The notes under the pieces: generated by a model
What the model saw: the letters and a program-made list of their open reading frames with translations, nothing else
The model's database searches: none
Told to the model about the DNA's origin: nothing
Program-made: the position numbers and the translations under genes
Assembly (NCBI GenBank): GCA_950295325.1
Contig: OX485806.1
Span: 56,105,169 to 56,169,168 of the forward strand
DNA: 64,000 bases
Source: Polytrichum commune
Lineage: Eukaryota; Streptophyta; Polytrichopsida; Polytrichales; Polytrichaceae
Direction: 5' to 3'
Shown: in pieces, positions 4,961 to 60,244 of the stretch
How positions within the stretch are numbered: position 1 is the stretch's first letter
Layout of the letters: each line of letters begins with the position of its first letter

Positions 4961-5004
4961 ATCAATATCCACAGAGTCCAGACTTTGCCAACGATTGATG
5001 GACG

Positions 5005-20067: not shown

Positions 20068-23000
20068 ATGCAAGGTAAGACTCGATCCCAAAAACCAAAG
20101 TTGGAATTAGAAGTAGATAGACTTACTCGTAGAAGAAGATCATCTAGGATTATTGAAGTGGTGGAAGAAGTTGAAGTTAGGATAGAGAGTCGTTTGAATG
20201 TGCAACCTAGTGTTAGTCCATTGTTAGGAACATTAGAGGAGCATGCTCAGTTAGAGGACGACGATATTCTGTCCAGGTGGGGCGTCGAGACACCATCGAA
20301 AACTAATTCACCTAGAGAAGACAATTCAATAGGAATCGATAGACACATAGGAGAAGATCCACCGGTCGACATGGCACGGCGAGAGGATGACGAGGGACCC
20401 ATACCGGAAGAAGACCCCATTGATCCATTGGTTAGACCGAGAGGTTTACCAATTGTGGTTCCACAAAACTTACATGGGGTGGATATGCCATCCCACCTCC
20501 TTAAGTTTTATGAAACCAATGATGAGGATCTTTCTAGGCACATGGAGAGGTACATGGAGAGGTTGGTTAGTTCTCTTGTGACCAATCTGGGATATTGGTT
20601 GGTATGGTTTCCTACTACTCTAGAGGATGAGGTTTATGAATGGTATAGAGACCATACCGAGGGACATTTTAGAGGATGGGAGCAATTGCAAAGGGAGTTT
20701 TTGAATGAGTTTCGGCCGGAGATTGGTCAAAGCACGACTTTGAGGGCATTGGCTTCATTGAAGCAAGGTAGACAAGAGAAGATTTCGGCTTACATTAGGA
20801 GGTTTGATTTAGTGTGTACACAATTTGTGGGCACCATGCTCAATGATGATACACTAAAGCAATTTCTTCATTCAAGGATTCTTTAAGTCGGGGACAATTA
20901 TGGGTGTTTTTTAGAGGTGTGGTACTTTTGGGCCACCCCCTTTCGAGGGAGCCTAAAAGTATCACACAAGCCCTTCAGTGAAGGTGGCCTGCACTTACAA
21001 GTGCCCAAGCCGAACTCGGATTATAGGTGTATAACGTGAGTAGTTAGATTTTTAAGGGAAATTAAATATGCGTCGTACTACCTCCGGTGGTTGGGCCTTA
21101 GTTTTTTACTATTGTGGCTCTAAACTCCACTAACTGATTTCATATCTAGTTCAAACCTTAACATACAACCTATTCTACGCGCAGACGCAACAGCCTTGAA
21201 ACCAAGGCAATCCTAATTTGTAATGGTTTTGATACACACCAATCGGGTGTGACTCATACCACCCTAGCTCAATGAACGGAATAACGACAATTTGATGGAC
21301 CATTTAATTTTTCATATTTCTTTACTTAGTTCTATTTAATTTTCTAAGCGGGGGAACTCGGCCTAAGTTCCATCCTTTATACAAATTATTTCTTAATTAT
21401 TTGATTTCGGTTGCACCTCCTACTTCACTACATTCACATATTAGGCATCACCCCTTATCTGATTGGTGCACCTCTTACCTCGGAACCTTCTAAGGCCTCG
21501 TGCAGGTCTTTTGAAGGTCGAGTAACATCTCAAACCCTTCGGACTTCAACGGTCCGACGGGTGGTGTCACCCTACCGAGTTAAGTTTCCGATTCGGGTCT
21601 CTTGCCAACAAGGGTTTACGATTTATTTGTATGTTTTAATTGTTAAGTGGGTTTACATTCGATAGGCCACGAAATTACAACTTAATGGGACTAAGGTGAC
21701 GGGCAACCTGTAGGTTCAATCTGTTGCACAATTTTCATAAATTGGGGTCATTACTCCCAATCTATGGGGCCAACAACATAATAGTGGATTCGCGGGTCAT
21801 TAACCCCACCTTTCCACCAACAACATTCAGAGTGGTCGTGTCGGTGATTAATCCGACTTACCACACACAAAACTTGCTAATAAATGAAGCTACTACCACA
21901 AAACATACCAAGGGCCCCGAAAACAATGGAATTGGGTACTCCCTTGGCGGTCAAGTGGTCAAGCCACTTGACCTTACGAGATAGGTGAATAGGTTAAGAG
22001 ATGCGTACCTTAGCCGCGCTCCCTCCAACCCTAAATGGAAGGCTAGCGTTAGTAAATTTACCTCAATTCTCCTCGGTTGAATTGGGCTCAATGTAGGCCG
22101 AGCCGCTTCCTCCTTCCTTGCTCCACTTCCCGAGCGTCGACCTTGCCTCTTTCTTTGTAACTAGTTTGGTAGTTTGGGAGTAATATTAAAATATAAAATA
22201 TTTATTCTACATCATAATTTAATCCTAAGCATAATATTTATACTTAGTGCACCTAATTATCTTTCTAAGGATCTAAAAATCACTTTAATCGGATAAGAAA
22301 TGCAAAAGTTATGAGGGTTGGAAGTATGAGGTCGATTCAACCGACCCTTCCAACCCACCTATCTACCTTCTAATTTTAAAACTTCATAGCACATTCCTTA
22401 CTATTTGGATCTAGGATTTTCTTATACCATTGGAAAGCTATGAACAAGTTCTAACTAGGAAAATTATGATATCAGCAAGTTAAGCTAATAGAAATTCAGC
22501 AGACTCCTTGTAACACAGCAGTCAATCAAGAAGGCTTACACTATGTATCTCGCCTTCAACAATTCATATCTAATTCAATTCTTATTCAAATCAAACGTTC
22601 TATATGACCCTGGAGAGATATTAAAAAGACATATTTGATAAAAATATGTGATTGGAAAGGTAAGCCGAATTGAACCCAGCAGATCCTCTGTAATGCAGCA
22701 GTCAACCAAAAGTTCTCAAACTATGTGTCCCATCTTCCACAATTCATATCTAATTCAAATCATGCTCAAATCAAATGTTCTAAGCCATTTTGGAAAGCTA
22801 CACAAAAGTTCTACTTGGGAAAAATATATCTTTTTAGAATTAAAATTTTAATTGGGCTCGCAGGTCTGATCCAGCAGCCGCTACCCACAAGACCACCCAG
22901 TTCTTCTACTCCATCTTTGAAAATCCATAACTAATTGTCATCTTAACCAAATCACAAATGGGAAACGGCTATGGATAGCTATAGGAAATCTCCCTAAGAG

Positions 23001-24765
23001 AAAAATGATAAGTATCTTGTTCTAGGTTCTGAACTAAGCCTTCAGGGCATTGGCAGATGAGGTCTATAATGCTTCCACTCAAAGTCTACCATCCAACCTA
23101 CCTCTACAAAAGAAGGAATAATTTTGTTGGTGTGTTAATAAACACACATTCTAACTAGGAGAGAGAGTAGAGGAGGTTCTCAAACCTTTTTTTAGGCCAT
23201 TGAGAATGCATGCTAAAGGATTTTTTCCTAACTACATTGAAGCAGGGTGGAAGAAGGGGTTTTTAAACCCTCTCACAAAACGGTTGGACCCCTCCTCCAC
23301 CGGATCCATTTTTCAAACCCTTTCCCAAAATTTTGGCTCGGGGGTTTTCCGGGTTGAGATTGCCACCCTCTCGCCGAGGTGGCTCGGACGGGAAACCTAG
23401 AAATCTTTCTAATTTTTCGCCATCGAGTTGGCAAGAGGGCAAGTGGGCAAGTAGCCCCCTTGCTCTCTTTCTTTTTTGTCTTCAAAAGTCTTCAAGCCGA
23501 TTTTATCATCTTACGCAAAACACCTCCAATAGTCTTGTGTTCCTCACACTAATTAATAAACTAACACTTGCTTAGCTAGCATCTACTAACATTTGCTTAA
23601 TAGCTAGCATCTACTAATATTTGCTTAGCTAGTTGTCTTTACTAGCTAGCATATTTTTTTCTACTTTGCTTATCTTCTAGCACTACTTAGTTTCATTTTG
23701 ACCTTCCTTTTTCTAGGCTAAATGCTAAATGAACTAATTTTCCCAAAATTCCCTATCAATTCTAACTTTTAATGCTAACATTCTAACTAAAAGTGATCCC
23801 GCGGAGTGGTGGACCACTCAAAGGGTTCACAAGAGGAATCCTCATACATTGGCGGATGCCAAGAGAGCGGCTAGAGATATAGAAACCTTGGATAGAGATC
23901 ATGAGAGATTGTGGAGAAGGGATGATGAATTGATACCACAATTCATTCCCATTCGACCTAGAATGGTGGCGGGAGAGCCGGTCAAGTATGAGAGTCAAGT
24001 GCCCTATGCTCTTGTTGACACGGGTCCACGTCCTTTAGCGGTTAGAGAACCGACACTACTTTTGGCATTACCGGCTTCTAGAAGTGATCCTCACCTAGAA
24101 GAAGTGGAGAAGAGATTGGGAGCTAGTCAATTGGGATTTCAAGAGGCCATGATTAAGCAAATACAAAGTCTTACGGATCAAATATCTTTGATAATCAAAA
24201 GCCAACAACCGGGCCTTCCTCCTCCGGTTGAGTCGGGTAGACATGCATCGGGATTGTGGTGTGTTTAATGTGGCCAACCGGGCCACACTCGTCAGTTTTG
24301 TAGAAGTGGACAAAACCATGATAAAAAAAAAATGGTGGTCCACCTCCACAAACCAAAGTGGTCAAGGACAACCTCAATATGGGCAAGGTAACAATAGGGG
24401 ACCTCCTCCTAAAGGTCAAGGTGGTCAAAACGTGGAGACAAAAGAGTTCTATTCATTTTGTGGGAGATGACATGCACAAGGTCAATGTTGGTCCGAAGGA
24501 CAAGGTCACGGTTGTAGCAATTGTGGAGGAAACCATCCTTCGGATGAGTGTCGTCAACCGGATAAGATTATTAGTGTGAATTACCCGGTGGCCAATCCAC
24601 AACAACAAGCGAGGGACAACATGAGGGGAGCTAAACCTCAAGGTGGACCACCAAATGAGCTTAGGCCACCGAATTTGTATTACGACCATAGTAACGCGAG
24701 ACAAACTTCTCATCCACCGGCGGGATTGCAAACTGCGAATGCTTTCATTCCGATTCAAGGTAGGT
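20068..24765 (+). pseudogene. gag: gag of the 18.7-kb element, split by a solo LTR
   Basis: The first part (20068-20917) is an acidic N-terminus followed by a capsid-like region: LVWFPTTLEDEVYEWYRD, a WEQLQREFLNEFRP block and KISAYIRRFDLVCTQF. This is the usual plant gypsy retrotrans-gag signature. The frame resumes after the inserted LTR (23832 on) with NPHTLADAKRAARDIE. Then come zinc knuckles: CGQPGHTRQFC (about 24260, CX2CX4HX4C, preceded by a stop), a degenerate second one and CSNCGGNHPSDEC (about 24505-24545). Defects are a frameshift with a stop near 20884, a stop at the insertion site, a TAA before the first knuckle and a TGA near 24470. Gag would form the cytoplasmic particle and bind element RNA. 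The gene is dead in this copy. Confidence 0.88.
20918..23831 (+). mobile_element. Solo LTR, family Y, 2.9 kb, TSD AGAGG, inserted in gag
   Basis: It starts TGTGGTACTTTTGGGCC and ends GTGGACCACTCAAAGGGTTCACA. The 5-bp duplication AGAGG is perfect (20913-20917 and 23832-23836). Removing the LTR and one duplication copy rejoins the two halves of gag, which confirms the boundaries. A second copy of the family lies at 36708-39498. Inside are CGCGCAGACGCAACAGCC-like and CCCGCGGAGTGGTGGACC words common to both copies. There is no coding capacity. Confidence 0.93.
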
Positions 24766-24821
24766 AAGGAGGTCTACAATACTTCGACCCGGGTCCGTCT
24801 AACTCTCAGGATGTCAGGTTT

Positions 24822-26630
24822 ATGGATGGTGTAGTGGAGTCACATCATGATGACACTCTTCCTCTCCAAATGGAGATTGGAGATGAACAAGGTCAATGGT
24901 CTCCACACACCAATGCCATTACCTATGAATCGAAGGGTCTAGGAGATGACGTTACCCATGAGGCACCGGCATTAACGGTTACCACTAGAGCTAGGAGAGG
25001 GAAGACCCCATTAGAGGTAGGAATAGAGGATCAAGAGGAGTATTCTTCGGACGAGGCTCCTAACATTTCCGAATTTGATAAGGTAGCTAGAGTAGCTAGA
25101 AGGGCCACTAGCGAATTAGAGAAAGAGAATATGATTCTTCATGATAGAGAGAGACCTAATGTCATTCATGATTTGAAGGATAGTGAGATGGGAGAATGGG
25201 AAGGACCGGGAATTCCTTTGGATGACTTCGATGGTGTTGGCAATGCCAAAGTGGAGAAGTCGAGTGGCTACGATTTATGGGCCGATCTTAGCTCACTTAA
25301 GGCCGATATTACCTTTGGACAATTGTTGGAGATTTCACCCATAGCTAAAAAGACTCTCAAGGAAGGGATGCCGATGACTAGGAGGACTAAGAAGGTTAAG
25401 ACTAGGGTAGCGGCTAGAGTTCAAATGCAAGGAGGAAGACGGGATGTCAAACCAATTGAAATTGAGGTTATGGTGGTGGACAAAGTGGTTCCTAATGTGC
25501 TAGTGGATGGAGGTAGTGGAGTAAATATCTTACCGGAGCATACCATGAAGAGGTTGGGTCTTAGTTTTATGGGTCCGTTACATTTTATCATCAATGTGGC
25601 GAATAAAAGTCCGGCCGTGCTGTTGGGAATGATTAAAAATTGTAGGATTAGCACCGGAGGGGAAAAATATATAATCATCTTTCATATCATAAAAATGCAT
25701 TCTAACAAGGATACATTTCCCATCTTGTTAGATAGACCTTGGTTGAGAATGTCAGATGCCATAGTGGATTGGGGTGGAGTCAAGCATTCCATTACTTATG
25801 GTCCGGAGGATAATAGGGTCAAAGTTCCCATCGGGTCGTTAGGTGGTTGGATTAGACAAGAGATTGCTTCCTCTTCGGACGATGAAGGTGATGCCAAGGA
25901 TGATGGCAAGAATGATGAAGCATTGGTAGAAGTAGTTCATTCGGGTGGTCTAGGTCCTAGTTTTTACAATTATGGGGATGATGGGAAGTATGCCCAATGG
26001 TTGAGAGATTATCCGGAGTCGGAATTCGATGTCATGACGACGTCCCACCATGCATGTTTGAGAGATGACATTCTTCATTCACGGAGTGAGAAATGTTCTT
26101 TGTTAGAACCATGTGAGGTGCTCACCGAGGAAGAGTGGATTTTAGGGGGATTGACACCTTGGGTAGATAGTATGGAAGAGAGTGACGTTAGTTTAGTACA
26201 TGTGGATGGGACTCAAGATAAGGAGGCTATCATAGAAGCGGAGAAGTTGGAGGAGCCTTTGCACTTCAAGACTACGTTAACAGGAATTGTGGTTGGTCAA
26301 GATGTCAAGGATTATCCCAACGTACCGGCGGATTGGTATAGAAACAAAGATGGGCAAGTTCATGTTACGGATGCGAATTGGAATTATGTAGATGTTCCAA
26401 TTAGAGTTGGACATTGGGTGTTAGAATGGTCATCTTGCGACCCCCATCAATGTTGGGTTGAAATTTGGAAACTATGGATAGAAGATGGAATTAGGATTCA
26501 ATTGGGGTACCAACAATGTTACATCAAAATGTCTAATGATGAAGAGGAAGACCAATGTTTTTCTAGTTCTAGAGGAAGGTTGCCTAGACATCGATATAGT
26601 TTGCAATGGAGTTTCTTAAGGTCGCAATAG
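24822..26630 (+). CDS. Retropepsin-containing polyprotein segment (602 aa open)
   Basis: This is the longest open frame in the window. The N-terminal 200 residues are acidic linker. The aspartic protease is at about residues 215-340, with active site VLVDGGSGVNILPEHTMKRL (Asp codon near 25505). DGGSG replaces the usual DTGAS, as is common in plant gypsy proteases. ILLDRPWLRMSDAIVDWGG follows and has the place of the second hydrophobic-Gly segment. The last 200 residues are an acidic linker that would lead into RT. RT itself is missing: the text jumps near 26600-26640 to the integrase C-terminus. Retropepsin would cut the Gag-Pol polyprotein. The open frame suggests fairly recent activity, although the element is internally deleted. 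The start codon is arbitrary because the region is read as part of Gag-Pol. Confidence 0.85.
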   Translation: MDGVVESHHDDTLPLQMEIGDEQGQWSPHTNAITYESKGLGDDVTHEAPALTVTTRARRGKTPLEVGIEDQEEYSSDEAPNISEFDKVARVARRATSELEKENMILHDRERPNVIHDLKDSEMGEWEGPGIPLDDFDGVGNAKVEKSSGYDLWADLSSLKADITFGQLLEISPIAKKTLKEGMPMTRRTKKVKTRVAARVQMQGGRRDVKPIEIEVMVVDKVVPNVLVDGGSGVNILPEHTMKRLGLSFMGPLHFIINVANKSPAVLLGMIKNCRISTGGEKYIIIFHIIKMHSNKDTFPILLDRPWLRMSDAIVDWGGVKHSITYGPEDNRVKVPIGSLGGWIRQEIASSSDDEGDAKDDGKNDEALVEVVHSGGLGPSFYNYGDDGKYAQWLRDYPESEFDVMTTSHHACLRDDILHSRSEKCSLLEPCEVLTEEEWILGGLTPWVDSMEESDVSLVHVDGTQDKEAIIEAEKLEEPLHFKTTLTGIVVGQDVKDYPNVPADWYRNKDGQVHVTDANWNYVDVPIRVGHWVLEWSSCDPHQCWVEIWKLWIEDGIRIQLGYQQCYIKMSNDEEEDQCFSSSRGRLPRHRYSLQWSFLRSQ

Positions 26631-33564: not shown

Positions 33565-35332
33565 TATGAGCCCAAAATGGTTGCTCATATTTGTTTAATG
33601 TTTAGAATTTACTTAGAATTGCATTTGAAGTCGTTATTGAAACAACAAAAAACATTAAAAATAGTGAGGCTTGGTATGGAGTTATGTTTTAGGCCTTAGG
33701 CTTATTTTTGTGTGGTTAATTAGAAGCTTAGCGGCATTAAGGGATTGGGTGAATTAAGTTGATAGTATGTGTGTTAAGTAAGGGGAAGGGCCTCGGGATT
33801 TAAGTGTTTGAATTGGGACCTATGGTGTTGGTTTAGGGGGTGAGGGCTTAATGGATAAGATGAGGTCCTACTAAATAGGAGAGAGGTGAGGGGTTAAGCC
33901 CTCTTGGTTTTGTGTATGTCTCCCTCTCTTCTTCTTGTGTGTGGGGAGCGGCGGGGGAGCTCTCGGCTACTGATTCAGGCTTTGGGTAATGGTTTGTTGC
34001 CGCTGGAGGAGCTCGGTTACTGATTCAAGCTTTGGGTAATGGCTTGTTGCCGCTGGAGGTCAGCTCGGCTACTGATTCAGGCTTTGGGTAATGGTTTGTT
34101 GCCGCTGGAGGAGCTCGGTTACTGATTCAAGCTTTGGGTAATGGCTTCCTGCTGCTGGAGGTCAGCTCGGCTACTGATTCAGGCTTTGGGTAATGACTCG
34201 CTGCCGCTGGAGGTCAACTCGACTACTAATTCAGGCTTTGGGTAATGGCTGCTACCGCTGGAGGAGCTCGGCTACTAATTCAGTGTTTGGGTAATGGCTT
34301 GCTGTCGCTGGAGGTCAGCTCGGCTACTGATTCAGGCTTTGGGTAATGGTTGTTGCCGCTGGAGGAGCTTGGCTACTAATTCAATCTTTGGGTAATGGTT
34401 TGCTGCCGCTGGAGGTCAGCTCGGCTACTGATTCAGGCTTTGGGTAATGGCTTGCTGCCGCTGGAGGAGCTCGGCTACTGATTCAGGCTTTGGGTAATGG
34501 CTTGCTGTCGTTGGAGGTCAGCTCGGCTACTAATTCAGGCTTTGGGTAGTGGCTGCTGTCGTTGAAGGTCAGCTCGGCTACTAATTCAGTCTTTGGGTAA
34601 TGGCTTGCGGCCGCTAGAGAAGCTCGACTACTTATTCAGGCTTTGTGGTAATGGCTTGTTGCCGCAGGAGGTCAGCTCGGCTACTCATTCAGGCTTTGGG
34701 TAATGGCTTGCTGCTGCTGGAGGTCAGCCCGGCTACTGATTCAGGCTTTGGGTAATGGCTCCTGCCACTGGAGGTGCTCGGCTACTAATTCAGTCTTTGG
34801 GTAATGGCTTGCGGCCGCTAGAGAAGCTCAGCTACTAATTCAGGCTTTGGGTAATGGCTTGCTGCCGCTGGAGGTCAGCTCGGGTACTGATTTAGGCTTT
34901 GGATAATGGTTGCTACCGTTGGAGGTCAGCTCGGCTACTGATTCAGGGCTTAGGCCCGGAGGGAATTGTTGGTTTGAAGACCGGGTATGAGCCGGGTATG
35001 GGACCGGGTATGGGACCAGGTATGGGAAAGGACCAAGGGCCAAGGGCATTAAGGGGATTTGGCTCCACCATTAGAGGGTGGCCTATGGAGATGAGCTTTT
35101 GGTAGTGAGTTGAGGGTTGGTGTGAAAATTAGTGTAGGGAAAAGGGGATAAATAGAGAAGAGCATTTTTCAATGCTTGTACTCTTATTATGGAATAATTT
35201 GGTGTGCAAGAGTTTATGGGAAATGAAATGGATTTTTACGAAGTTGGTAAGAGGGAGTTATGTGAACATGAATGTGATACCCATGCCCTCACCCGGACTA
35301 GGACGCATAAGGGTGGGTGGTTTGGCCTCACA
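33565..35332 (+). mobile_element. 3' LTR of the 18.7-kb gypsy element
   Basis: It starts TATGAGCCCAAAATGG and ends GGTTTGGCCTCACA, followed by the duplication ACCCT. Outside the minisatellite it is nearly identical by eye to the 5' LTR (for example AAGGGATTGGGTGAATTAAG in both), so insertion was relatively recent. The 3' part again has CTTGTACTCTTATTATGGAATAA and CTCACCCGGACTAGGACGC. Confidence 0.92.
33957..34950 (+). repeat. LTR minisatellite, ~55-bp units, about 17 copies
   Basis: The same GCTCGGCTACTGATTCAGGC / TTTGGGTAATGGCTTGCTGC unit as at 17050 is present, with more copies and a different order of variants. A short GGGTATG(G)GACC tandem follows (34980-35020), also present in the 5' LTR near 18835. 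Confidence 0.9.
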
Positions 35333-41714: not shown

Positions 41715-44504
41715 CTAGTGAAAGCACTAGGTACTAAGAATCCTCGACAACAAGGAAAACTCCACTGTCCAACTGGTAGAGAAGTCAAGGGTGGCCTCAA
41801 ACATGCCATGTGCCAACCACGTTGACATTAATCACACAAGAGCATGGTAGCCGTTCATTTCTTGTCCCCCCACACAAAACATGGAAAACCCTCTGAAACG
41901 ACGGCCAATTCAGGATGGATTATACCGTTGATGGGTACATGACATGGACATTCATAATTTTTGGAATGCTCACGACATTCCCAACCATCCTTGCCTTCCA
42001 ACAACAACAAACCACACAGCAACACCTCCTTCATCTGAAGGATAATGCTCCCCGCCGTGACATCCAATGTCGTGGGTACATCACATTGGAGATAGACATA
42101 ATCCCCTTGTCGGAATCTCCACAATTGAGGTCGGTAAGCACCACTACAAATGCGTGAATAACGTAGCGTGTCACGGTGCTGAGCAATGGACAAATTTTCC
42201 ATGGCCATAGGCATGGCCCTCTAGAAAAGTTGAGCCCGCTCCTGCAAACACTTTGCCCAAATGTTTGGGTCATCCAAGTCCACAACAGGAGCTAGCTTTT
42301 CCCGAATGGAACTTGGAGTATAAGCTCACGTCCATACAACAACTGATACGGGCTGTAGAACGCCAAAGAGGCATGCCTACTTAATCGATAGCCCATAGCA
42401 ATCCAAGGCAACATAAGGTTCCAATTCCGGTGGCTCCCATGAAGTAATCCATACTTCCTCAAGCCACGCTTGGTTGTCTTAACAATCCATTCACCCAAGC
42501 CATCTGCCTCCGGATGATCCCGAGAGGTGATACGGTGATCTATGAGAGCCTTTGTGTACAACTCCTAAGAAATACCCGGAATTCCTTCCCTTGGTCCGTT
42601 AGTATCTCATCCGGTGCTCCAAAACGTGCCAACACACGATCCCAAAAAGTGGTCGTGGCCAACCTTGCAAAGTTTTGGGGTAGAGCAACAAGCTCAATCC
42701 ACTTGCTAAAATGCTCCACCATCACCAGCATGTACTGTGCTCCACGCGGTGTGACAACCAACAGTCTTACAAAGTCCAACGACCAACGATAGCCCAATCT
42801 CATGATAGGTAAGGGTTGTAACTGAGGTGACAAGGTGTTAAAGCTAGATTTGACCTGGTCATAAACTTCATATCTCCTGACATAAGCAGCTACATGGTGA
42901 TACATGCCAATCCACCAATATTGGCCACACAACATTGAATGTGTCCTGCGTATGCCAAAATGGCCAAGTTCCTCGTGCACTCGTCGCACCAAGGAAGACC
43001 TCTGATCCGGTCTAGGGACAATACGCCTTGTCCCATCCGACCATAATCAAAATAAGAAACCGTTCTCCCAACAAAACCTTGTTGTTCGATGTCCAATCCT
43101 ATTCCTTTCCATTGCCAAGGTAGACGAAGGAAAGGTCCCCTACTGAAGCTTATGTAATACAGGAAGATCCTCCTATATATCCGCAATAGCTTCAAGTCGA
43201 TCGGTCTCATCATCCGATCCATGTATCGGAACCTCAATAGCATCGCCAAAAAACAAAGTGAGGTAAGCAATCATGTGCCAACCTGGAACCTCCTCTCGAT
43301 CATATTTTCCACGCCACCTGGCCCCGGTCAAGTCCTAATCCGAAGGACTTGGATTGTGTAAAAGTCCATCTACATTCAAGTTGGTAATCCCAGCATGGTG
43401 CACCACATCAAATTCACACTCCTAGAGCAACAAAGGCCACCTTGCAAGCTTGTCAATAAACTTATTCGACTCTATGACCCACCGTAACGGCTGATGGTTA
43501 GTCACCAAAGTAAAGCGTTGATCATAAAAATATGGTTGGAAATGGGCAATAGCCCACACCGCCGCCAATGCTTGTCCCTCATAGGACGAATAATTGGCCT
43601 CCATAGTGTTGATGCTTCGCAAAGTATAAGCAACAACATACTTGCGGCCAAGATCATCCTTCTAATTGAGAAATGCTCCCAAACCCAATGAACTCTAGTT
43701 TGTGTGCAACAGGAAGGATTTGGAGACATCCGGACGTCGAAGCACTCGAGCCGCACCTAAATTTTACTTCAATGTCTCGAATACCTACTGTTGCTCACGA
43801 TGCCAAGTCCAAGGTTGGTCCTTGCTCATGAGAATGGTGAGAGGCTTGGTGATCAAGCTAAAGTTCTTGACAAATCGGCGATAATAATTCGCCAAGCCCA
43901 GAAAAACACAAAGTCTCGGCACATCGACCAGTGCCAAGATTTTTTGCAATGCGTCCACCTTAGTTTGTTGCACCCAAAGACCTGCACTAGTGGAATAATC
44001 ATATGATCTAGATATACTAGTCGGTCATGGAAAACTTGCACTTGCTATGATGCAAGCGCAATCCCCACCGCCGCAACCGTTAAAAAACGGGTTGCAGATG
44101 CCTCACATGCTCTTGCGGTGTCTTCTTGAAAATGTTAACGTCATCAATGTAACACCGAGCAAAGGGCAAGCCAAAGAGAACTTGGTCCATCACTCTTTGA
44201 AACTCAGCATGTGCATTCTTGAGGCCAAATGGAAGAAACTTCCAATGATATACTCGATCATTCCCATCCTGATCAACTCCCCAGAATGCGGTTTTCACTC
44301 GATCTTCCACCAAGTAATGAGAACTGTTGATAGCCGAATCTCAAGTCTAGGGTGCTAAAGACTCGAGAAAATCCGATCACATCAAACAACTCCTCCAAGA
44401 TTGGCATGGGATACCGATCCGATTTGGTCTTCCAATTAACTGGACTGTAATCCCTGCACATCCGCTTCTCCGTTCAATTGCCAAAGATATCCTTATTTGA
44501 TGGC
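41715..44504 (-). pseudogene. pol: Ty3/gypsy pol: RT, RNase H, integrase, PHD finger
   Basis: Broken frames on the minus strand give a nearly complete pol. RT (44504-43990) has RYPMPILEELFD, LPFGLKNAHAEFQRVMDQ and the active site CYIDDVNIF. The RNase H part (43850-43380) has YVVAYTLRSI and NYSSYEGQALAAVWAIAHF, with TNHQPL in place of TDHQPL. The integrase has HEELGHFG with its Cys pair lost, catalytic Asp in RWSLDFV and ILTDQGKEF, and Glu in ADGLGEW (42992-42290). The C-terminus (42200-41745) carries LDVTAG, HPELAVVSEGFPCFVWGDKK and, after a stop, TATMLLCD.CQRGWHMACL, a PHD finger with one Cys replaced by Trp. Many stops and shifts make it inactive. It shares its RT with the plus-strand copy at 47720-48586. 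Upstream parts are cut off by an LTR at 44510. Confidence 0.88.
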
Positions 44505-48586: not shown

Positions 48587-48809
48587 CAGAGTGCAAGTAA
48601 ACATTAGTGAAACTAGTAGGAAACTAATAAATCACATAGTAAGCCACTTAGGATTAGTGGACTTCAAGGTGGCAAGTAATCGTCTAGGCCACATAGGTAA
48701 GGCAAACGAAGGTGAAAGTAAATAAGGGCCAAGAAATGATTTCTTGGTTAGCCTTAGGAATCTTCCCATACCTAGATAATGTATAGGTAGTTTTTAGGCT
48801 ATAATCTAC

Positions 48810-48875
48810 GGGGAATGCTATCTTGTGAGCGGTGAGCAGTGAGCGATGAGCAGTAATTTGTGAGCGGTGAAGAAA
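48810..48875 (+). repeat. Left terminal inverted repeat with TGAGC heptamers
   Basis: GGGGAATGCTATCTTG is followed by TGAGCGGTGAGCAGTGAGCG and further TGAGC units. Heptamer tandems at transposon ends often serve as transposase binding sites; that is inference. The next 48880-49399 is AT-rich and non-coding. Confidence 0.8.
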
Positions 48876-49399
48876 ACAAAATATTTGGTAATAGGTCCCC
48901 TAATATCCTATAACCGTGGCCTAAAGAAATAAATTTTTAGGGTTCAATAATAAGAAGAGTGGGAAGGACAAACAACATGAATGCTAGATTGTGAGTAGTG
49001 AGCAACGAAAAAGACCAATATGTACATGACTAGGGGCATATATATATTTATCATATACAAATTTTCATAGTTGTATTGCATGTCGTATGACAATGGAATG
49101 GACAAAGTTGAAGTGAATGATGCTCATGATAATGATGATCATTAACATTCATAATATGAACACATTGAACAATAAAACAAAACATGATGCAATGATACTA
49201 AATTTTGTAATTGGTCATTATACAACATAAATATAGAGAGTGCAAAAAAAATAGAGTTGGACATTAAACATGTGTAAGTCCTTCAAGGTATATTATAAGT
49301 TAATGTATTTTAAAATATTGATACCAAGTGTAAATATAAGAGTTGAACACGTGCCAACAAAAAATAATTATTAGTATAAGTTAAAGTGATGGAGGTTGA

Positions 49400-52300
49400 T
49401 TATGATTCGGCCTCTAAATCTATGAACTCCAAAAGCCGACAATCATACCGTTTAGATTTTCTATGGGTAGAGGAAGGGGAAGATTGAGCAGCAAAAACGG
49501 AACCCATGGTCTCGGCATAGATAGGGAGGCTTCGTGGAGGTGATGGACTTGCTACAAAATTTGGATCTTCAAAAAAAGGTCGCCAACGTCGGCGACAATG
49601 TGGTATCACATTGCTAGCACATGACAACATAATTGTGTTAGTATTCATAATAATCCAACTAAATGCATATACAATATAATGCAAGTAAAAATTATACAAT
49701 CAACCATATGAAGGTTTCAAACAAGATAAACAAACAAAACTTACTCACAAAATAAATTGACGGCCTCACGATTAACAATTAGAGAATCATCCAAGTCTTC
49801 AAAATTGATATCTTTGCCAATAGGTAAAGGGGATTGTAGAATTAAAGGCTTCAAGACGGAATCAAAAACATCTTTATCACCTTCCAACGCCAAGAGGTCA
49901 CGCTTCAAAGCGCGGCAAGCATGTATGGAAGGTCCTATCAAAGATATAAGAAAAAATTATCAAAACATAAATAAATGAGAACATGTTAGTTTATAAAAAA
50001 AACGTAATAAAATCATTTCAAAGCAACAAGAAAATGTTTTATATCTATGCCAGCAGTGAGGTCTGCAACAATGCCTTCGGGTTTTGAGAAAACATCAATC
50101 AAACATTGGAAAAACAATGGATGTTTTTCTCGCGGGCCTCTCCAAGGTGTGCTACCATCATCTCTCATTAGTTAAGAACTAGCATCCGTGAAGTTGTATA
50201 AAACATCATCATCCAGACTCATACCATTCTCCGAAAGATCTTTGTCAATGTTCATTTGAAAAGGCAAAGGCATGCGTTTCAATTGAGTAGTATCACTGAA
50301 AGAGCGTCGAAGCAAGATGGCAGTGAATTTGATGGTCTGCACAACAAATGTAACATAAGTAAAATAACAGACTAATCAAACTATAATGTTCAGAAACAAC
50401 AAAATTCATTGAAAAGAATAAATTATGATGAAAAGAGATGTGACACTAATTATTTTGTTTGGATTGTGAGGATTGGCTAGACAAAGTGGGTTCACACAAG
50501 TCCAAGGTCCATGACCAACCTTGAAATTATAATTGAAAAAATATGTAGATAATTCTTTCGTCGACTTTGGATCTTCATGATGAAATATCAACAAAACACT
50601 ATTGTTGTGAAGATATTGCATGCAAAATGAAAAAAGAACAAGAAGGTATGGAAGACGAAGGTGTTGAAATTCCAAGCACAGGAAGCCCCTCCGGAATATT
50701 TGCAATAACCAAATCAACTGATGGTGTTGCCTTTGGAACACCTTGAAAGCAAAATGTGCAATTTGCACCAACCTGAACAACATAAATACAATCAATAGAA
50801 TTCAGTATATTATTGAGCCACAAAATGCAAAACAAAATTGGATTTGTTATTTAACATAAAATTTACAAAAATCGGCAAGAAAAATAACTTAGTAAGAAAT
50901 GCATTGACGTCATGGAAAGATTGAGGCCAAGAGTCGGTTTTTTCTTTGACATTCAATATGTTCAAAAAAAAATCATTCAAAATGGACTCAAATGAGTCAT
51001 TGTCATAACTACGTTATGTAGTTTGAGAAACTTTAGTCTTGATTCTCAAATAAGTAAAAGGCTCTTAAATTGTAGAAAAACCAGGGTTGGTACTTGATGA
51101 AGTTGAAGGTTTAGAAACCTTAAGCTTCTTGCTAGAAGGTTCATCTTTCATTGGACCATTGTCTTTGGATTGTTCAGGCACTTGAACACTATTCTTCCTC
51201 TTGCCTTTAATGGGTGCACTACGTGGGAAATCTTCCTCCACTGTAGGTGGAACAAATGCTGGCTCAAGATGATTACACAATTCCAATTCAGAATGTGGAG
51301 TTTTACTCTTAGGACAATCCAAATACCATCCGCATTCATACCAATGGACCTCATTCCAATCTTTGCATATTTCACGAGTGAACATCGAATTCTCCGATTG
51401 AATATCCTTGAAACTGTCAAAAAATGTTGGTAGCTTATTTAAAGCATTGGCAGGCAGCAACACACGCTTAAAGTATCTGTGTAAACCAAAAAATTAGATT
51501 CAAGTAAAAAGAGTTACAAAAATTGGAAAAAAATGAAGAATGCCAAACATAAAATATAGTCAAGACAAATATCACATATACCTGTAAACAATCCCCCTCA
51601 TGGCTTGAAGTCCCCCAGGCTGCTTATCAAAAGTCTTGTTTATCATGATGTCGTCATTCGATTTGAACAATTTGAAAAATGCCGTTTGCCAACAAGTAAC
51701 CCTCCAAGATTCAACATAATCAGCAAAAAGTGAAAATGTTTCACTATTTCAGGAGCGATCTTGATGGTGATGTTTAATTCAGAAATTGTGGATTCATGGA
51801 GAGCAAGAGCTTCTTTAGCCAACTGTTGAAAGAAAAAAAACAATTAAGAAAAAAAATATTGAATATACATAATATGAAAATAATACTTTCAATTATTCAG
51901 ATCAAAACAGACTTCAACGAGATATTATTACATGACTCCAAAAGGTTGCTTTGTGTAAGCCTTATCGGAAATAGGCATCTTTGGAAATTTCAAAGACATA
52001 CAAAATGCAGGAATTGAATTCCACAGCTCCAACCATTTAACCTTCTGCGCGGCATCTACTTTCGATGTCACAAGATGCTGAAGTTTTTCTTGATTCATTT
52101 GAGGTTCTTTATAATACAAATCATAATGCCGTTTGATTTGAGCCAAGAAATCATGTCCCAAACTAATATTCACAACGGGTAAATGCTTTGTAAGACTAGA
52201 GTCTAGTTTGACACGTTTGGCATCCATTGCTGCATTCATAAATTCTGTAACTTCTTCGACAAACCTCTCATGCTCTTTAGTGACCTCAAAATATTTTTTT

Positions 52301-55300
52301 GGGTCAAATCTCCTGCATCAGCAATATCATGCTGAACAAATAACACAATCAATTAAACACAGAAATACGATTAAAACCAGAAAGCTAATGAAAAAAACAA
52401 AGAGTGCGTAGAGTGGTATGAAACTTACATTATATAAATAATGCAAAAAAAAGATCCTGTGTAAGCGAGTACCACGTTGCAATTGTCTTTGTGATGCACT
52501 TTTTGTATTGGTCAGGTGTCAATAGATTTTTTAAGTTTCAATGGGTAAACTTCCGATAGCTTGCACACAATATGATTGATGCACGACGTTGGTCTTCACA
52601 TGAGAATGTTCAATGTGACTGAAACAACCAAAACGAATTCAATAAGAAATATAAAAAACGAATGAGAAACAAACTAAAAACTTGAAAAATGAAAAAACAA
52701 ATTACAAATTACACGGTAAAAACTTACTTGTTGAGATCGTGCATTGCCGTGAGCAACACCGCAACATCAGGGGATGGATTCCACAAAATATAATCCACTG
52801 AAATGTACGAAGTTGCATCTCTAAAATGATGCTTATCGATAACAGACCTCCATACTTGCAAATGATCATTCCCATCCCAAACCTAAAACTTCTTGTCCAC
52901 AAATTTGTTGAGAATATCGTCTTCTTTTAGAAACTCATCGAATTTTGCACTTTCATTTTTCCAGTGTATATTCCAAGAATTTATGAATTCAGAGGTCACA
53001 TCTTCAGTTTCTATTTGATTGTTTATAACTAAGATAAAGAACACGGCATTTTTGGATATATACCTATCAATAAATCCATGTTCCAACTTGAGAACATCTG
53101 ACATGAAGGTTGGTCGAACCAAAGGCATTGAAAGCAAACGATATAACGGACTGAAGAATCTTGATTTTGAAGTAGGTTGAAACTGTAGATTCTCAATCAC
53201 TGAGTTAGAATCAAACGAATGATCATTTAAAATAGCATTTACTTTCACATGAGAAGAAGTCACTTCACACAATTCATCATCTGGCTTGTTATCAGAAGCC
53301 AAATGTTTTGAAGTATCGTTTCTCTCCATCTGCAACAAAGATGAAGAAACTTGTCAAAACACAAATTGTTGATCACTACAACTAAATTCAAAACAACAAA
53401 CAACTTCTTATGTAGAACTTCAATAAATTTTTAAACATAAAAAATGAACTCATATGAAAAAACATTTTACGAACAAGTAGTAGAGCCAAACAAAATGAAT
53501 TTGATCGTACTTATTTTCTAATTTTTCATTAAAATCTTCAATTTTTATGGACCTTCAAAGTTGCCTAGTTGAAAGAAACACTGCATAAAACAAATTTTAG
53601 AATGTACCGTGGGGGTACATTAGACTACAAATATTCAACCCCACAAAAACAGTAGACTTTGGAAAATTCCTAAAAATGCAAATTCAAGTTTTAAATTCCA
53701 CAAAAAATCATGTCTACTGGCATGATCAAAATATATACACTTTTTTGTTTTCAACGTAATCTAAGGTGTTTTTATAATTTTAAAAATTCACCTTTTAAAA
53801 AACCCAAATCTACCAATTTCGGTCTTTGAAAAAAAAAACAAAAAAAAAACACACAAACACAAACACAAACACACACAAAAACCCACATATGCATACACTC
53901 ATATTCACACCAACATACATATACATACAGTCTTTGGTATATTGGTTGTGCCGCCAATATCCTCAGACTGTTGATACATAGTAGAATTGGTTCTTCATTA
54001 TGTTATCAAAACATTCAGTACTTCAATATTTGGTTCTTACAAGGGTATTGGCGGTACCGCCAATACCCTCAAATACAAATTCATTTGTCTATACAGATTA
54101 TAACAACATATACTTGTACAGATTACAAACACATGTTTTTAAGCTTGAAAACAACTTTTCATATGCATTTTCAGAATACACAATACATACATACACAAAT
54201 GAAGATAATCACCTCATACTTTGTTGCATCCGACCTTCCGACAACCCGCGACAACTAATATTTTTTTCCACCACCTCCCTACTACCACCACGGCTTGCCA
54301 CTCTTCTCAATGTTCAGCAAACGAAAAAGAATTGAACTTCAGGTTTCCTACCTTGTCTATCAGAATTTTCTGACGAATAAATCTTATTGGATGAAAATTT
54401 ACATTTGGATGAGGACGATGCTTACCCAAAAATACTTTCAGTTTCCTACCTGGATGGTATCGGCGGCACCGCCAATATCTTCATAAACATCGCAACTTTA
54501 GGCCTTAGGGATATTAGCGGTACCGCCAATACCCTTGGTAATTTCTAATGCATTACCTCTCCTATACCCTGAGGGGTATTGGCGGCACCGCCAATATCCC
54601 CAAGCCCTTGTACGTGCTTCCTCTTTCATACCCGAGGGGGTATTGGCGGTGCCGCCAATGCCCCTTAGACCTCATATTTATTTCCTCCTTCATACCCGAG
54701 GGGGTATTGGCGGTGCCGCCAATACCCGTGAGACCACATACGTATATCTATTTCCATACCCATGGTGGCCAGGAGGGTGTTGGGGGCACCACGAATACCG
54801 TTGGGGCCTTTATACATGTTTTCATTTTAATACCCGGGGGGTATTGGCGGCACCGCCAATACCCTTCGGGACCTCCTTCGTATTTCCCATCTCATACCCA
54901 AAAGGATAGTGGCGGGTACCGCCAATACCCCTGGGGCTGTCATACGTGTATCCACTATCATATACGGGGGGTTGTGGCGGTACCGCCAATACCTTGGGGG
55001 CCCTCCTACATATTTCCACTCTCATACCGGATAGGGTATTGGTGGTGCCGCCAATACCCTATCCGGTCCTCATACGTGTTTCTACTTTCATACACCGGGA
55101 AAAGAGTATAAAATTTGCAGTCCTGTTAATACCTTCTGGACTCTTAGCCGTAATTGTGGTTGCTTATAGTAGATTAGCTAGAAGTGATCATATACCTTCG
55201 CGAATTGACTATAACTGTGTGGAAAAGGATTTAAGACATCTACCTGTGGATGCGAGTAGTCTAAATAGACTAATGTTTCGGTCTGCACTAACCGGTTGGT

Positions 55301-56012
55301 TGCATTGACTCGTGATATCCCTTAATGAGCTAATGGTTAGGCAGGAAATAACATAGGTTGGATATATAGAAGGTTTTCCTATGCAAGTATGCGTAGATCC
55401 TTCTTAATAAATTTTTAATGAAATTATCTACTTTCAACAAACTAATGCATTTGCTGAACCATTTGGCTGACTATTGCTCTCATCAAATTGCAACTCCAAT
55501 AGCATTTGTGTTATGTCAAATATGTGTTATTTTCTATGAGATGCTCAAAGAATACTTACGCAATAAATTTCGTCTCCAACTTCATCTTCATCTTCATCTT
55601 CATCTTCATCTTCTTCGTTTCCGTGCGGGGAGTTGTTGTCATCTTCTTCATACATCTTGATTTGATCATTTTCTTCCTCTTCACCATCATCGTAGACTCC
55701 AATCTTATCCGCAGTATTGTTGTATACATCCCTATCAACCTCTTCTCTTACCTCTTCACTTTCTTCGTCCAAATCATTCAAATCTATACTCTTTTGTGTT
55801 TTTGCTAAATCATCTATATATTTCTGCACTACAATGTTAGATTTTTTCCTCATACTGCTTGCTTGTTCTTGAACTCTCTTTGTTGTAAAGTACAATTATT
55901 TTCGTCTCTTCTTTCTTCCACTCAATTGTATATTAGTCTCATGTTGATCTATCTCTTGCATCTGTGATAGTAAATGCTAAACGCTATACAACTCACTTTC
56001 TAAAACATTCAT
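49400..56012 (-). CDS. Ten-exon gene with N4/N6-type DNA methyltransferase-like C-terminus
   Basis: Minus-strand exons with consensus splice sites: 56012-55560 (acidic, with a KKSNIVVQKYIDDL segment and an Asp/Glu run), 53329-52728, 52618-52431, 52331-51932, 51822-51582, 51476-~50889, 50772-~50447, 50336-50051 (GC donor), 49934-49745 and 49613-49400 (stop). Exons 2-6 are unrecognised (for example WYECGWYLDCPKSKTP). Exon 7 has PSVDLVIANIPEGLP, a place match to the DPPY motif IV but with NIPE. Exons 8-9 have PREKHPLFFQCLIDVFSKPE, IVADLTAG and ACRALKRDLLALEGDKDVF, which fit the motif X, motif I and acidic-loop order of class-beta amino-methyltransferases. Stops lie near 52884, 51065, 51005 and 50165, with shifts near 52600, 51722 and 50630. 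Only 322 bp separate it from the divergent transposase. It is probably inactive in this copy. The family assignment is inference from motif order. Confidence 0.65.
53820..53890 (+). repeat. A-rich and (CA)n microsatellite
   Basis: Poly(A) runs are followed by CACAAACACAAACACA units. It is low-complexity intronic sequence. Confidence 0.85.
53944..55065. repeat. Array of GGCGGTACCGCC palindromes at a 65-bp period
   Basis: Twelve copies of an imperfect palindrome GGTATTGGCGG(T/C)(A/G)CCGCCAATACC are seen. The cores start at 53944, 54050, 54462, 54516, 54581, 54646, 54709, 54782, 54846, 54911, 54976 and 55041, and the last nine are spaced 63-73 bp, mostly exactly 65. Spacers share CTCATACGT and TTTC.TACCC words. 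The palindrome arms are conserved better than the spacers, and arm changes are sometimes compensated. The array lies in intron 1 of the methyltransferase-like gene. The open frames across it are by-products. Confidence 0.92.
55575..55614 (-). repeat. (GAAGAT)n coding microsatellite
   Basis: Six ATCTTC units (sense GATGAA/GAAGAT) encode the alternating Glu-Asp run at the end of exon 1 of the minus-strand gene, 10-50 bp before its GTAAGTATT donor. Such runs vary readily in copy number. Confidence 0.85.
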
Positions 56013-56334
56013 ACGAAGTTTGGTGCATACTCCTACATATATATATTCAATCTTATTAACGCATGGTTCTATTCTATTGATTAGAATATTTATTTTGAAA
56101 TATATTGACACCGTGTATTTTCTTTGTTATTTTTTTTCGAAGCGAAAACTCGCTTATTGTAATCTATTTTATCATTTGAATGTGATCGCCTTTATTGTTA
56201 TTATATTTTAGGGTTTCTTCATTTTTTTATTGTTTTCATTTAGGGTTTCTTGCGAAGGTCCAATATTGCCAATACAAATAGTCTTTCATTTGCACATTCC
56301 AATGTCTCTCATTCTCCAATACCCTTAATTCAAA

Positions 56335-59300
56335 ATGGCTACCATTAAAGCATCTCGATCATTTGTGCCCTTCACTTTGCCTCTTGAGGATGATCATCAT
56401 GTGAAGGTCTCAGAAGAGTTGCTTAGTTTGAGGTTCAATCTCCGGATAGGATCTATGTACGTGGAGCAAGAGATGTATTCCACGAACGGCGATATCTTGG
56501 AGACAATTTTGATTCCAAAGAACATGTGTGAAGATGGATACTTTTGGATTTTAGATCCAGGATCATTTAGAGTTATAGGGCTTACTGATTCTCAAATGCA
56601 AGCATCCACTGTTTTGTTGACAAATGGGTCTGGTGCATCTACTGTCGATGATGTGCCTAATATGACTAATGTTAAGATAGAACCAAGTGACGATGATGCT
56701 CTTGTGTTGTGGGATTCAGATGAAGAGGTTTGTCATGTTGTTGATCTTTTTGATACATCACATTTTCCTTATAAGACTAAGTCTTCCAATCTGGTTTTGG
56801 ACTCTGTGGATGTTGATAAAACCCCTCACAATTCGTCGTACATGAAATTGATTCGCCATGGTGTTTCGTCTCAACGTCCACCTCTTCATCTTTCTTCATC
56901 TTCTTCAGGTTTTAATATTATCGATGCATTAAAATGTGACAAACTCTAGGAGAAGGTCTAAATACAATCTTACTGCAATTGATTTTGACACTATAGATGT
57001 ACGTGATGTCAAGTACTTGCCACCATCTTTTGATTGTGATGTTATCTTTATTTTGCCTCCAATAACTGTGGATGTTTCAAATACGTATGGGCGTTCCATG
57101 GATGGCATGGATAAGATGTACGACGGACATCCTTGGTGCACAACCAAAACAATAAATATCCAAAACGATTTTGGATTTTCTTTCAGATGTTCTTCATGTT
57201 CCGGTCATTTACAGTGCACAAATACATATTGTGATTATTTGTATCGCAATGGAGGTGTTCACAACTGCACCGAATGGATTGGATCGACTCCTATCCCATA
57301 TTTTGTAAGGTATGTCTATAAGATTGGAGTGTAAAGTATGTCGTTCAACACCAGCGTGTATTGCGTTGTGTCATGCTTACATAATATATGTTCACTCCAC
57401 ATCCCCATGAATTTTAAGAGCTTGTTTACATCTAGGTGTTCATAAACACCCTGTATCAAATTGTACATGTCGTGAGTCACTTGACATGGCTTACCAATGC
57501 GTTGCCAATGAGGTCATGAAACCACCCACTGCCAAAAACTCTGCAATAGTTATGGCAGCGAGCAAAAAAATTCCTAGCAGACTACCTTCTAAAATCTCCA
57601 TCAAATGGTGAAGGACATCACCTAGCAGGTTCGTCATTAAAGGTCGTCATTGATAAATTCAGTACTCTTGCCACTCCAAATTGTCGTAACTTTGTATCGG
57701 GCTCAAAGCGCTTTGTTCATAGTGGAATGGGCACAATGGATAGTATCATGGCATTCAAAGATCATTCAGGCTTCAAGTACGTCCATGATAGTAGATTCCC
57801 GGGACAATCCAAAGACAAAGAATTTATCTTCAAAATGTCAGTAGATCTTCCGGGAAGTGGTGTGGATCTTGTGAAACGTATGCAGGTGGGAGGAGATATG
57901 GAGAATTCATGGATAATGTTTGATCATATCAAACGTCTGAAGGGCTGGACCACCTTTGCGTGTCATGTGTATGATAGCAAGTACTGTAAGGTGTTGCGAC
58001 ATGCAATCTGAAGATGGCGTAGCTCAAACGCTCTTTTGGGAAAACTTGAACTCCGTCATGTCGGAGAATGGAGTGTCAAAAGTAAATTTCAAAGGTTTCA
58101 TGGCAGATAGCGCTCAGGCTAATTGGAATGCGGTCAAAAAGATTTATGGTGTAGGTGACCCAAGTTTGCCAATGGTGGGTCGTGAACGTACTTGTCTCTT
58201 TAATTGGTCACAAAGTTTGGATAAGGTGACGCAGAAGTATATCAAGACATCTTTGCAGTTTCAGCACAAACAACTATGCAAGGATTATAAAGACGCGAAA
58301 ACAATTGATGAAGCTGAAACTAAATATCATGTCATTCGTTCATGGTGGTTGTCATCCGGAACTGCCACAGAAGAAGGCATTCTCGGCTTGTCCGAGTGGT
58401 TGGGGTTTTGGCACTTTCATTATAGGCAATGGGGTGGTTACATGATTTTTGTAAGTGCTTCATTACTATGTATTTCAGATGTTATTTTAATTTTTAGAAA
58501 TCCATGATATATATTTACATATACCATCTATTCTAATTTGTGTAATATTTTTGCAGGATATGACAATGGATGAACGTGCAGAAATGCCAACGTGTAATCT
58601 TGTAGAAACAGTGCACAACAAATGGCTCCAGTAGTCTGGAAACAAGATGACTTGTCTGTATGAAGCAACAGTGTTTGATTTGATCCGTGCATTCATGCAG
58701 ATTGCAAATTATAGATCATGGTTGAGAGGTGGTTCTACTGGTAAAGGGCCTGATTCTGCGTCCTTGGAATTGAAAGTTGCTGCCAGGTGCGGAGATCCGA
58801 AACTATTGGCAGATGCCATGAAGTCCTATCCAGGGTTGCAAGATCTCAATACTAAGGATTGTGCTTTGGAGGGGTCTAAGTTGTTTGGATCCACCAAACG
58901 AAAGCTTGATCTGCCACCGGGTGCAGATTGTGACCCACACTGACCCGATAAAGTGAACCACTCCATTCTTCGCCCTAACACTAGGGTTAGAAGGGCAATC
59001 ATAGAGGAATCTTTGGTTTTTACAAAGCATGGTGTGGCACATACCACATTAGTGTTAGAGACTGATTGTTTTTCTTCCCATTGCCATATTGCACGATTGC
59101 CAGCCAACTCTGCCAAAAGATGTTGGGCAATGCAAGCCAATACAGGGACTTTGTGCAATGCCAAAGTCGGAACTGGCAAACATGGCACACCAACTCCCAC
59201 GTACAAAGGATTGAAGAAGGAATACCGCTCCACCATCAATGTGGAGTACGAGTTTTGGTTTTGCCCTGATGACATCAAACGTTGTGTAAGTGGGAACAAG

Positions 59301-59924
59301 AAGAAGTATGTGTTAGATTGGCATGTAGTTCCCAGCATATGGCCTGTGAAGATAGGTACCAATCTCTCAAGGCAAGAAGTATTGGCACTCGAAGATGCTG
59401 GGTTCCAATTGCAGCAGAGGGAGGCTCTCTCTCCTCGCCGTAGGCTTTCAACAATTGCGATGCTCCCAATCCCTCGGACGGATTTTCATGTGCCACTAAA
59501 TTTGGATGCCCACCCAACTTCTAGGTTTGGCAAGTAAGTGCGCCGCAATCTAGCAGCACCAACAGTAGATCATAAAAACAAATGGGAGAACGCCGGGCTT
59601 ATGGACGGATATTATGTGGTTGGAATAACTGCCTTTCCATATCCAGGATTTGGAGTGCTAATCAACATCGTCTCCAAGGAGGACATCACATATCGTGTCA
59701 CAATTGGCGACATGCCGCATTGCACATGCCGTGACTTCACCAAAATGTCATGTCAGTCATTGGGAAAGAAAGGGAAATGGGTGTATTGCAAACATCTTTA
59801 TTACGTGTTTAGATTTTTGTGCAAAGTGGATTATGATAGTGACAAGTTCATTCATGCTCCAACGTACTCCTACAACGAGGTCATGCGTTTAATTGAACTT
59901 GCAGGTGTTGTAGAATGTGAGTAA
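56335..59924 (+). pseudogene. Mutator-like transposase with SWIM zinc finger
   Basis: It starts MATIKASRSFVPF and would be about 1160 residues. Order: an acidic N-terminus with SDDDALVLWDSDEEV; a Cys-rich domain (57160-57270) with FSFRCSSCSGHLQCTNTYC, a FLYWCH/GCM-like zinc site; and a DDE-like core (57720-58450). The core has first Asp in SWIMFDHIKRLKGWTTFACH, second in FKGFMADSAQANWNAVKKIY, a C-x2-H-like CLFNWSQSL and a possible Glu in GLSEWLGFWH. One intron (58451-58556, GTAAGT...TTGCAG) follows. The C-terminal SWIM finger is CTCRDF...CKHLYYVF (59720-59810), as in MURA transposases. Shifts near 56945, 57340, 57590 and 58000, and in-frame stops at 58632, 58941 and 59535, inactivate it. It would bind the terminal repeats and cut the element out. 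Confidence 0.8.
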
Positions 59925-60134
59925 TATTTCAAGTGTTGTATTTAACTGCATGTTTGAGAATTTGAATAAGTGACATGTATTAGTGTGGATTTCTATAATA
60001 AAAACCAGCAATGGACTAAGTATCCATGGTAATAAGTTGCCTTCATTTTTCTTCAATCATAATGCGAGTACTTTATATTCCAAAAATATGAGTGCCAATT
60101 TTAGAAAATATTACCTAGAACCATGCCCAATTGA

Positions 60135-60233
60135 TAAATTTGGTATCATTGCTCACATGTTACTGCTCATTGCTCATGTGTTACCGCTCACCGCTCACTG
60201 CTCACGGCTCATTGCTCATGTGTTAGCTTCCCT
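60135..60233 (-). repeat. Right terminal inverted repeat with TGAGC heptamers
   Basis: Complement reads AGGGAAGCTAACACATGAGC and then repeated TGAGC(A/C/G)(A/G) units in two clusters separated by GTAACA(C)ATGAGC. It is longer than the left repeat, with more heptamers. Confidence 0.8.
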
Positions 60234-60244
60234 CTATAATCTAC

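Follow-up and report, generated by a model that had tools for sequence, protein, structure and literature searches.

The targets of VANC proteins, encoded by the VANDAL elements of Arabidopsis, are described as rapidly diverging tandem repeats of noncoding DNA that differ between families, and VANC proteins as binding such motif arrays (PMC10398659). The locus reported here, a two-gene Mutator-type DNA transposon, lies in a window of 64,000 nucleotides (the whole stretch analysed; C4:56105169–56169168) of the 408-Mb genome of Polytrichum commune, with seven large contigs of 42–78 Mb. Like VANDAL as presented in that source, it combines a Mutator-type element of more than one gene with tandem noncoding motif arrays differing between related families (PMC10398659). 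The likeness is one of arrangement (an accessory gene, private arrays and many clades per genome); unlike VANDAL, the elements here have recognisable TGAGC-type termini, a methyltransferase-related second gene (gene B) and palindromic arrays.

Transposon-borne genes for epigenetic enzymes are also described for retrotransposons with C5 cytosine methyltransferases (PMC5890265), and for fungal DNA transposons with TET/JBP and oomycete MuDR elements with SET (PMC12730594). These carriers share such a gene with the present element, but their enzymes belong to other families, whereas gene B appears to have an amino-methyltransferase fold, catalytically altered by its look. MULEs with a second open reading frame, namely mudrB and the Ulp1-carrying Kaonashi, likewise have an accessory gene beside the transposase and duplications of 8–11 bp (PMC6446971, PMC13317346), although that gene comes from a different family. 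With phage ParB-methyltransferase fusions (M.PhiCh1-I), gene B shares an N6_N4_Mtase domain in the same permuted order, with a profile match of 88–89% over the domain; in the phage proteins the tetrad is DPPY or SPPY and the linker is short, whereas gene B has neither tetrad, a linker of several hundred residues, many introns and a putative relation to ParB.

Structure of the element

The whole element occupies positions 48810–60233 (11,424 bp) and is enclosed by an 11-bp target-site duplication, CTATAATCTAC, at 48799–48809 and 60234–60244, the only two occurrences of this sequence in the window. Its outermost bases are GGGGAATGCTA at the left and, on the opposite strand, AGGGAAGCTA at the right. 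The terminal regions consist of TGAGC-type repeats with the inverted repeats I1 and I2 (48810–48870, plus strand; 60146–60233, minus strand, the latter with a tandem period of 21/7); the terminal inverted repeats are imperfect, with 45–46 nt paired at 78–80%, and pair in more than one register because their units repeat. A copy on contig C5 (c2), whose aligned pieces are 91–96% identical to the window element, carries both genes and window-type termini within a different 10-bp duplication, CCCCTAATGC, and a relative on C1 (11,886 bp) carries both genes and the same termini with an 11-bp duplication, CATCGAAGTTA, on either side, so that the three elements with both ends read have duplications of 11, 10 and 11 bp. 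The matching terminal repeats and identical 11-bp flanks of the preliminary description are thus exact at 48810–60233, with termini that recur in c2 and the C1 relative, and its two-gene Mutator-type element is borne out by both genes lying inside duplicated flanks in all three. A second C5 copy (c3) aligns along both genes; its left end, the one compared, is diverged, and its right end lies outside the sequence read. In another copy (c1, C1:16408400–16421700), some 11 kb of other sequence separates the transposase from gene B, including a palindrome-dense stretch (TTTACGAACG–CGTTCGTAAA) that is perhaps a further inserted element.

The transposase gene (gene A; 56335–59924, plus strand) has an intron at about 58451–58556 according to splice signals in the window, and in the C1 relative it consists of two exons, both open, with frames of 742 and 455 residues. 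Its SWIM-like zinc finger (59691–59810, plus strand) was matched by Pfam SWIM with E 0.039 in the window and 0.1 in the C1 relative's protein, both short of the curated cut-off, as was DUF6208 of its own (E 0.0015 in the plus-strand frames of the window); a D...D...C-x2-H pattern was seen by eye only. The label Mutator-type therefore rests on the duplications of 10–11 bp, the terminal repeats and the SWIM-like motif, with Pfam SWIM below its cut-off and no match to the Pfam MULE domain in the C1 relative's transposase protein. The window copy is dead, being broken by in-frame stops and frameshifts in gene A and gene B alike.

Gene B and its linkage to the transposase

Gene B lies on the minus strand, divergent from gene A, with about ten coding blocks at 53329–49400 and an upstream exon, the borders being drawn from splice signals and relatives, not RNA. 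The ten-exon divergent gene described earlier is thus upheld for its coding blocks but was missing the upstream exon at 55961–55560. This first exon (55560–55961) encodes a basic GRKKRRK followed by an acidic stretch, contains one stop, has by eye a counterpart in locus L043 (KRRRRKALYFTSEKKR), and is separated from the remaining coding blocks by a 2.2-kb noncoding part. There follow, on the same strand, the N-domain exon (52727–53329; one stop), the middle coding blocks (51582–52617; borders approximate), a block with a CGWYLDCP motif and a linker (50898–51477; stops), three methyltransferase-like blocks (50451–50772, with a frameshift; 50046–50336, with one stop; and 49744–49935), and the last coding block (49400–49609), to which a stretch in the L043 ORF 302–643 is similar by eye. 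The N-domain, possibly ParB-like, contains W[DE]GNHR in most exons read, exceptions being the window (WDGNDHL) and some dead copies, and a [HN]VxTN block follows it wherever the next exon was read.

The genome was searched with the gene B protein, where 48 of 3534 first-look candidates were scored and at least 149 exon matches obtained, and with a diverged copy, where 62 of 3304 were scored and at least 134 matches obtained. Gene B forms a genome-wide family with the clades B1 (that of the window), B2 and B3 and the further L063, L067, L068 and L069, the clades being about 30–50% identical in protein; when four members, of which two were assembled from several copies each, are aligned, conserved blocks run from the N-domain through the C-terminus.

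At all eight further transposase loci read, hand-picked from 47 scored and read in the flank expected to hold gene B, gene B adjoins gene A in the opposite orientation (in the first flank stretch at five loci, in the second at three), and we regard the linkage of the two genes as nearly certain. The loss of the second gene among transposase relatives, an outcome considered in the preliminary description, was thus not encountered at these loci, where reading covered mainly the N-terminal half of gene B; its methyltransferase block was encountered at two of the eight (L068 and L069), and also in the B3 gene of L043 (with one in-frame TAG) and, for the most part, in L044. Counted from gene B, at least 7 of 36 loci lie within 15 kb of a scored transposase, all of them divergent; here the loci are a hand list (35 from the window-protein search plus L043) and the transposases the 47 scored, and the fraction is a lower bound because the window, c2 and c3 carry both genes yet fall outside the 47. 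None of the six listed B2 loci was within 15 kb of these 47 transposases, and the 8 kb beside one B2 copy contained two frames of at least 110 residues, neither of them transposase-like by eye.

Palindrome arrays in noncoding DNA

A tandem palindrome array with the consensus GGGTATTGGCGGTRCCGCCAATACCC (53937–55067) lies in what is predicted to be the first intron of gene B. When palindromes were counted with arms of at least 10, a loop of at most 2 and one mismatch, and with 20 shuffles as the control, the noncoding part in the window gave 7 in 3 kb (shuffle mean 0.00), the C1 relative 25 (0.45), L038 10 (0.55) and five other stretches 3–8 (0.05–0.40); the weakest stretch, L037, had 3, the highest count among its shuffles being 2. 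Since the remaining window is enriched as well (11 in 48.8 kb; shuffle mean 2.25), the genome holds other palindromes; all 15 occurrences of the half-site TATTGGCGG or its complement in the window, in turn, fall within the element. Across four B3 stretches, all 28 TTTGGGTC/GACCCAAA pairs have a spacing of exactly 4 bases, filled by nine different centres, and other clades and copies have the array sequences GAGGTGCCGTTAACGGCACCTC, GGGGTGCCGTTGCCGGCACCCC, TCAATAAGGGTGGCCGTTAACGGCCACCCTTATTCA, GTGGCATCTCGGATCCGAGATGCCAC and TTGTCTCGGATCCGAGACAA. The array region is lacking in c2 through an internal deletion, and no array of this kind was found within the 2.9 kb read at L063 and L065. Such palindrome arrays in noncoding DNA, specific to a clade and with their half-sites fixed, are a new observation, and the combination of constant arms and variable centres is what selection by a dimeric DNA-binding protein would be expected to produce. 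The repeated sites found with gene B are internal, contrary to the earlier idea that it marks the element's own ends. Upstream of a B2 copy (L042; C3:55895100–55903100) there are a second palindrome array, AGGGTGTCTCGGGACCGAGACACACT, and, at 4647–5405, a frame resembling by eye a diverged gene B exon (GGWYLDC).

The arrays could alternatively be promoter or operator sites between divergent genes, with gene B a transposition co-factor, a role that has been proposed for MURB of maize Mu. The pairing of gene B with the transposase in opposite orientation is in agreement with this explanation, as are the position of the arrays between both coding regions and their operator-like dyad symmetry with fixed half-sites. 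We nevertheless consider it rather unlikely, as the C1 relative also has arrays within its transposase intron, so that they are not exclusive to gene B, others lie between B2 coding blocks, and ten or more copies would be unusual for an operator.

Methyltransferase descent and the altered catalytic motif

The C-terminal half of gene B has the motif order of class-beta amino-methyltransferases (IV, X, I, II), as the preliminary description had proposed for an amino DNA methyltransferase, and homology points the same way. The PDB profile search gave M1.HpyAVI (E 2.4e-6 and 4.1e-6), followed by CcrM (0.066), M.BceJIV entries (0.11 and 0.16) and RsrI (0.16); hhalign of the gene B profile with the N6_N4_Mtase domain of phage ParB-methyltransferases gave 89.1% and 87.6%; and the best phage tblastn matches were annotated DNA methylase (2e-3 and 5e-3). 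Pfam N6_N4_Mtase alone matched at 0.05–0.12, below the cut-off, in three of the four sequences holding X–I, with no match in the fourth. Among the families that had been named for comparison, class-beta enzymes, not MT-A70, are closest by sequence, and a fold search with a low-confidence gene B model matched Rossmann methyltransferases, the fold that had been anticipated. Judged from these comparisons, descent of gene B from a class-beta amino DNA methyltransferase is nearly certain.

In the window, the second methyltransferase-like block contains the motif X region and motif I (DLTAGI, 50046–50063); motif I ends in the third, which also holds motif II (ALEGD). Motif I, the putative AdoMet-binding site, is kept as DLTAGTG and DLTCSTG, also as DLSVGTG and NMTASTG, and the acidic motif II as ALEGD, AFEGD and ALESD. 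The catalytic [DNS]PP[YFW], however, is absent from every gene B copy read; nearly all have x-x-P-[DE]-[GD] at that motif IV position, which reads NIPEG in the window (50686–50700) and, across copies, also DIPEG, DVPEG, DMPEG, VIPEG, DILEG, EYPDG, DYPDG, QFPDG, DVPED and DLPEG. Because the canonical tetrad is absent and the AdoMet motif kept, gene B is a methyltransferase by descent with doubtful activity.

That gene B actively methylates the element as an amino (N6A or N4C) DNA methyltransferase is unlikely, and canonical DNA methylation by gene B is less likely than self-recognition of the element (see below). The class-beta motif order and homology would suit an active enzyme, as would the preserved motif I and ALEGD-type motif II, the purifying selection on gene B and the retention, in several clades, of the D that opens DPPY (ADIPEG, ADYPDG, FDVPED and ADLPEG). 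However, the first residue is E in B2 and Q in B3, and every copy read lacks both the second P and the aromatic residue at the fourth position; it is on this aromatic residue that the target base stacks in known amino methyltransferases. The DNA modification by gene B put forward earlier is thus unsupported in its catalysis. Still less probable, to a degree that makes it a marginal explanation, is an action on RNA instead of DNA: Trm14 was the top match of the low-confidence model, with aTrm11, METTL4 and METTL3–METTL14 also listed, but the Trm14 and aTrm11 rows cover 81–82 residues, the rows spanning the model have class-beta DNA enzymes as the best and MT-A70 types below or tied, and the methyltransferase matches of the profile are named DNA enzymes or "Methyltransferase", the latter being M.BceJIV.

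Gene B may possibly have descended through a phage-type ParB-methyltransferase fusion, which we keep as a lead. Among the phage methylases, coverage was widest for M.PhiCh1-I (97%, though with E 0.9), which has N6_N4_Mtase and a ParB_N match just below the cut-off, and in comparison with the phage ParB-methyltransferases the DGNHR of gene B was aligned to the ParB G-x-x-R motif at a probability of 3.9%. Pfam gave a sole match at 0.17 for three B2 N-domain exons and one at 0.12 for the window N-domain, and the best PDB match of the N-domain profile was a ribosomal protein (0.045); no DNA-binding domain was recognised in gene B by Pfam, the PDB profile or the phage ParB-methyltransferase comparison.

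Selection on gene B

The gene B family is under purifying selection within clades. Within B2, in comparisons spanning dS 0.3–1.0, dN/dS is 0.07–0.13 for the N-domain (dS 0.43–1.0), 0.11–0.14 for block IV–VII and 0.16 for block X–I, and two B3 copies give 0.11 for the N-domain and 0.25 for block IV–VII (dS 0.07). Little can be drawn from the seven pairs of very close copies (dS ≤0.12; six of these pairs B1), whose dN/dS scatters over 0.30–1.03, and between clades, where dS is near or beyond saturation, dN/dS is 0.13–0.57 where defined. A chance capture, passively carried and with unrelated repeats, is hardly credible in view of the dN/dS well under 1 within B2 and B3 and the recurrence of the same gene in clades that have diverged strongly, with linkage at all eight loci read, even though Pack-MULE capture is described as common (PMC13317346), the window copy is dead and very close B1 copies reach the ratios just given.

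A possible role in self-recognition

The reading that we prefer is that gene B is a self-recognition factor at the internal arrays, part of a VANC-like anti-silencing module; we place this proposal, with its inferred mechanism, slightly short of an even chance, and self-recognition by gene B as such about evenly balanced. Gene B would bind the palindrome arrays of its own clade as a dimer and sequence-specifically, use AdoMet as a ligand or for an altered chemistry, and alter the chromatin or modification state at the arrays, whereby copies with matching arrays would stay active; the module would work as VANC does, with other protein parts. Against self-recognition speak the lack of a recognised binding domain in gene B, the occurrence of B2 without a known transposase and the existence of some copies without arrays. 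A more far-reaching and more doubtful proposal, though one deserving some weight, is that plant Mutator-type elements adopted a bacterial or phage-type (ParB-)methyltransferase as a sequence-specific self-recognition protein for the clade-specific palindrome arrays within its own element. Protein and arrays would then diverge in step and each clade would reach its own copies alone, which would amount to another, independent origin of a self/non-self anti-silencing system of the VANC kind, on a methyltransferase fold whose catalysis is altered.

If self-recognition is true, an amino-methyltransferase-like factor joins the short list of transposon-borne epigenetic genes, and the task performed by VANC would have been solved by a second kind of protein. 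The candidate target arrays are available for several clades within one genome, and recognition is therefore directly testable in vitro.

Surroundings of the element in the window

Gag-like and integrase-like frames were seen by eye around the element (20053–26630 and 42540–43046). Long arrays of a 52-bp unit lie at 17074–17715 and 33962–34947, as two related copies 17 kb apart, and a 1.2-kb stretch is present in inverted copies, 91% identical, at 1–1196 and 4998–6219.
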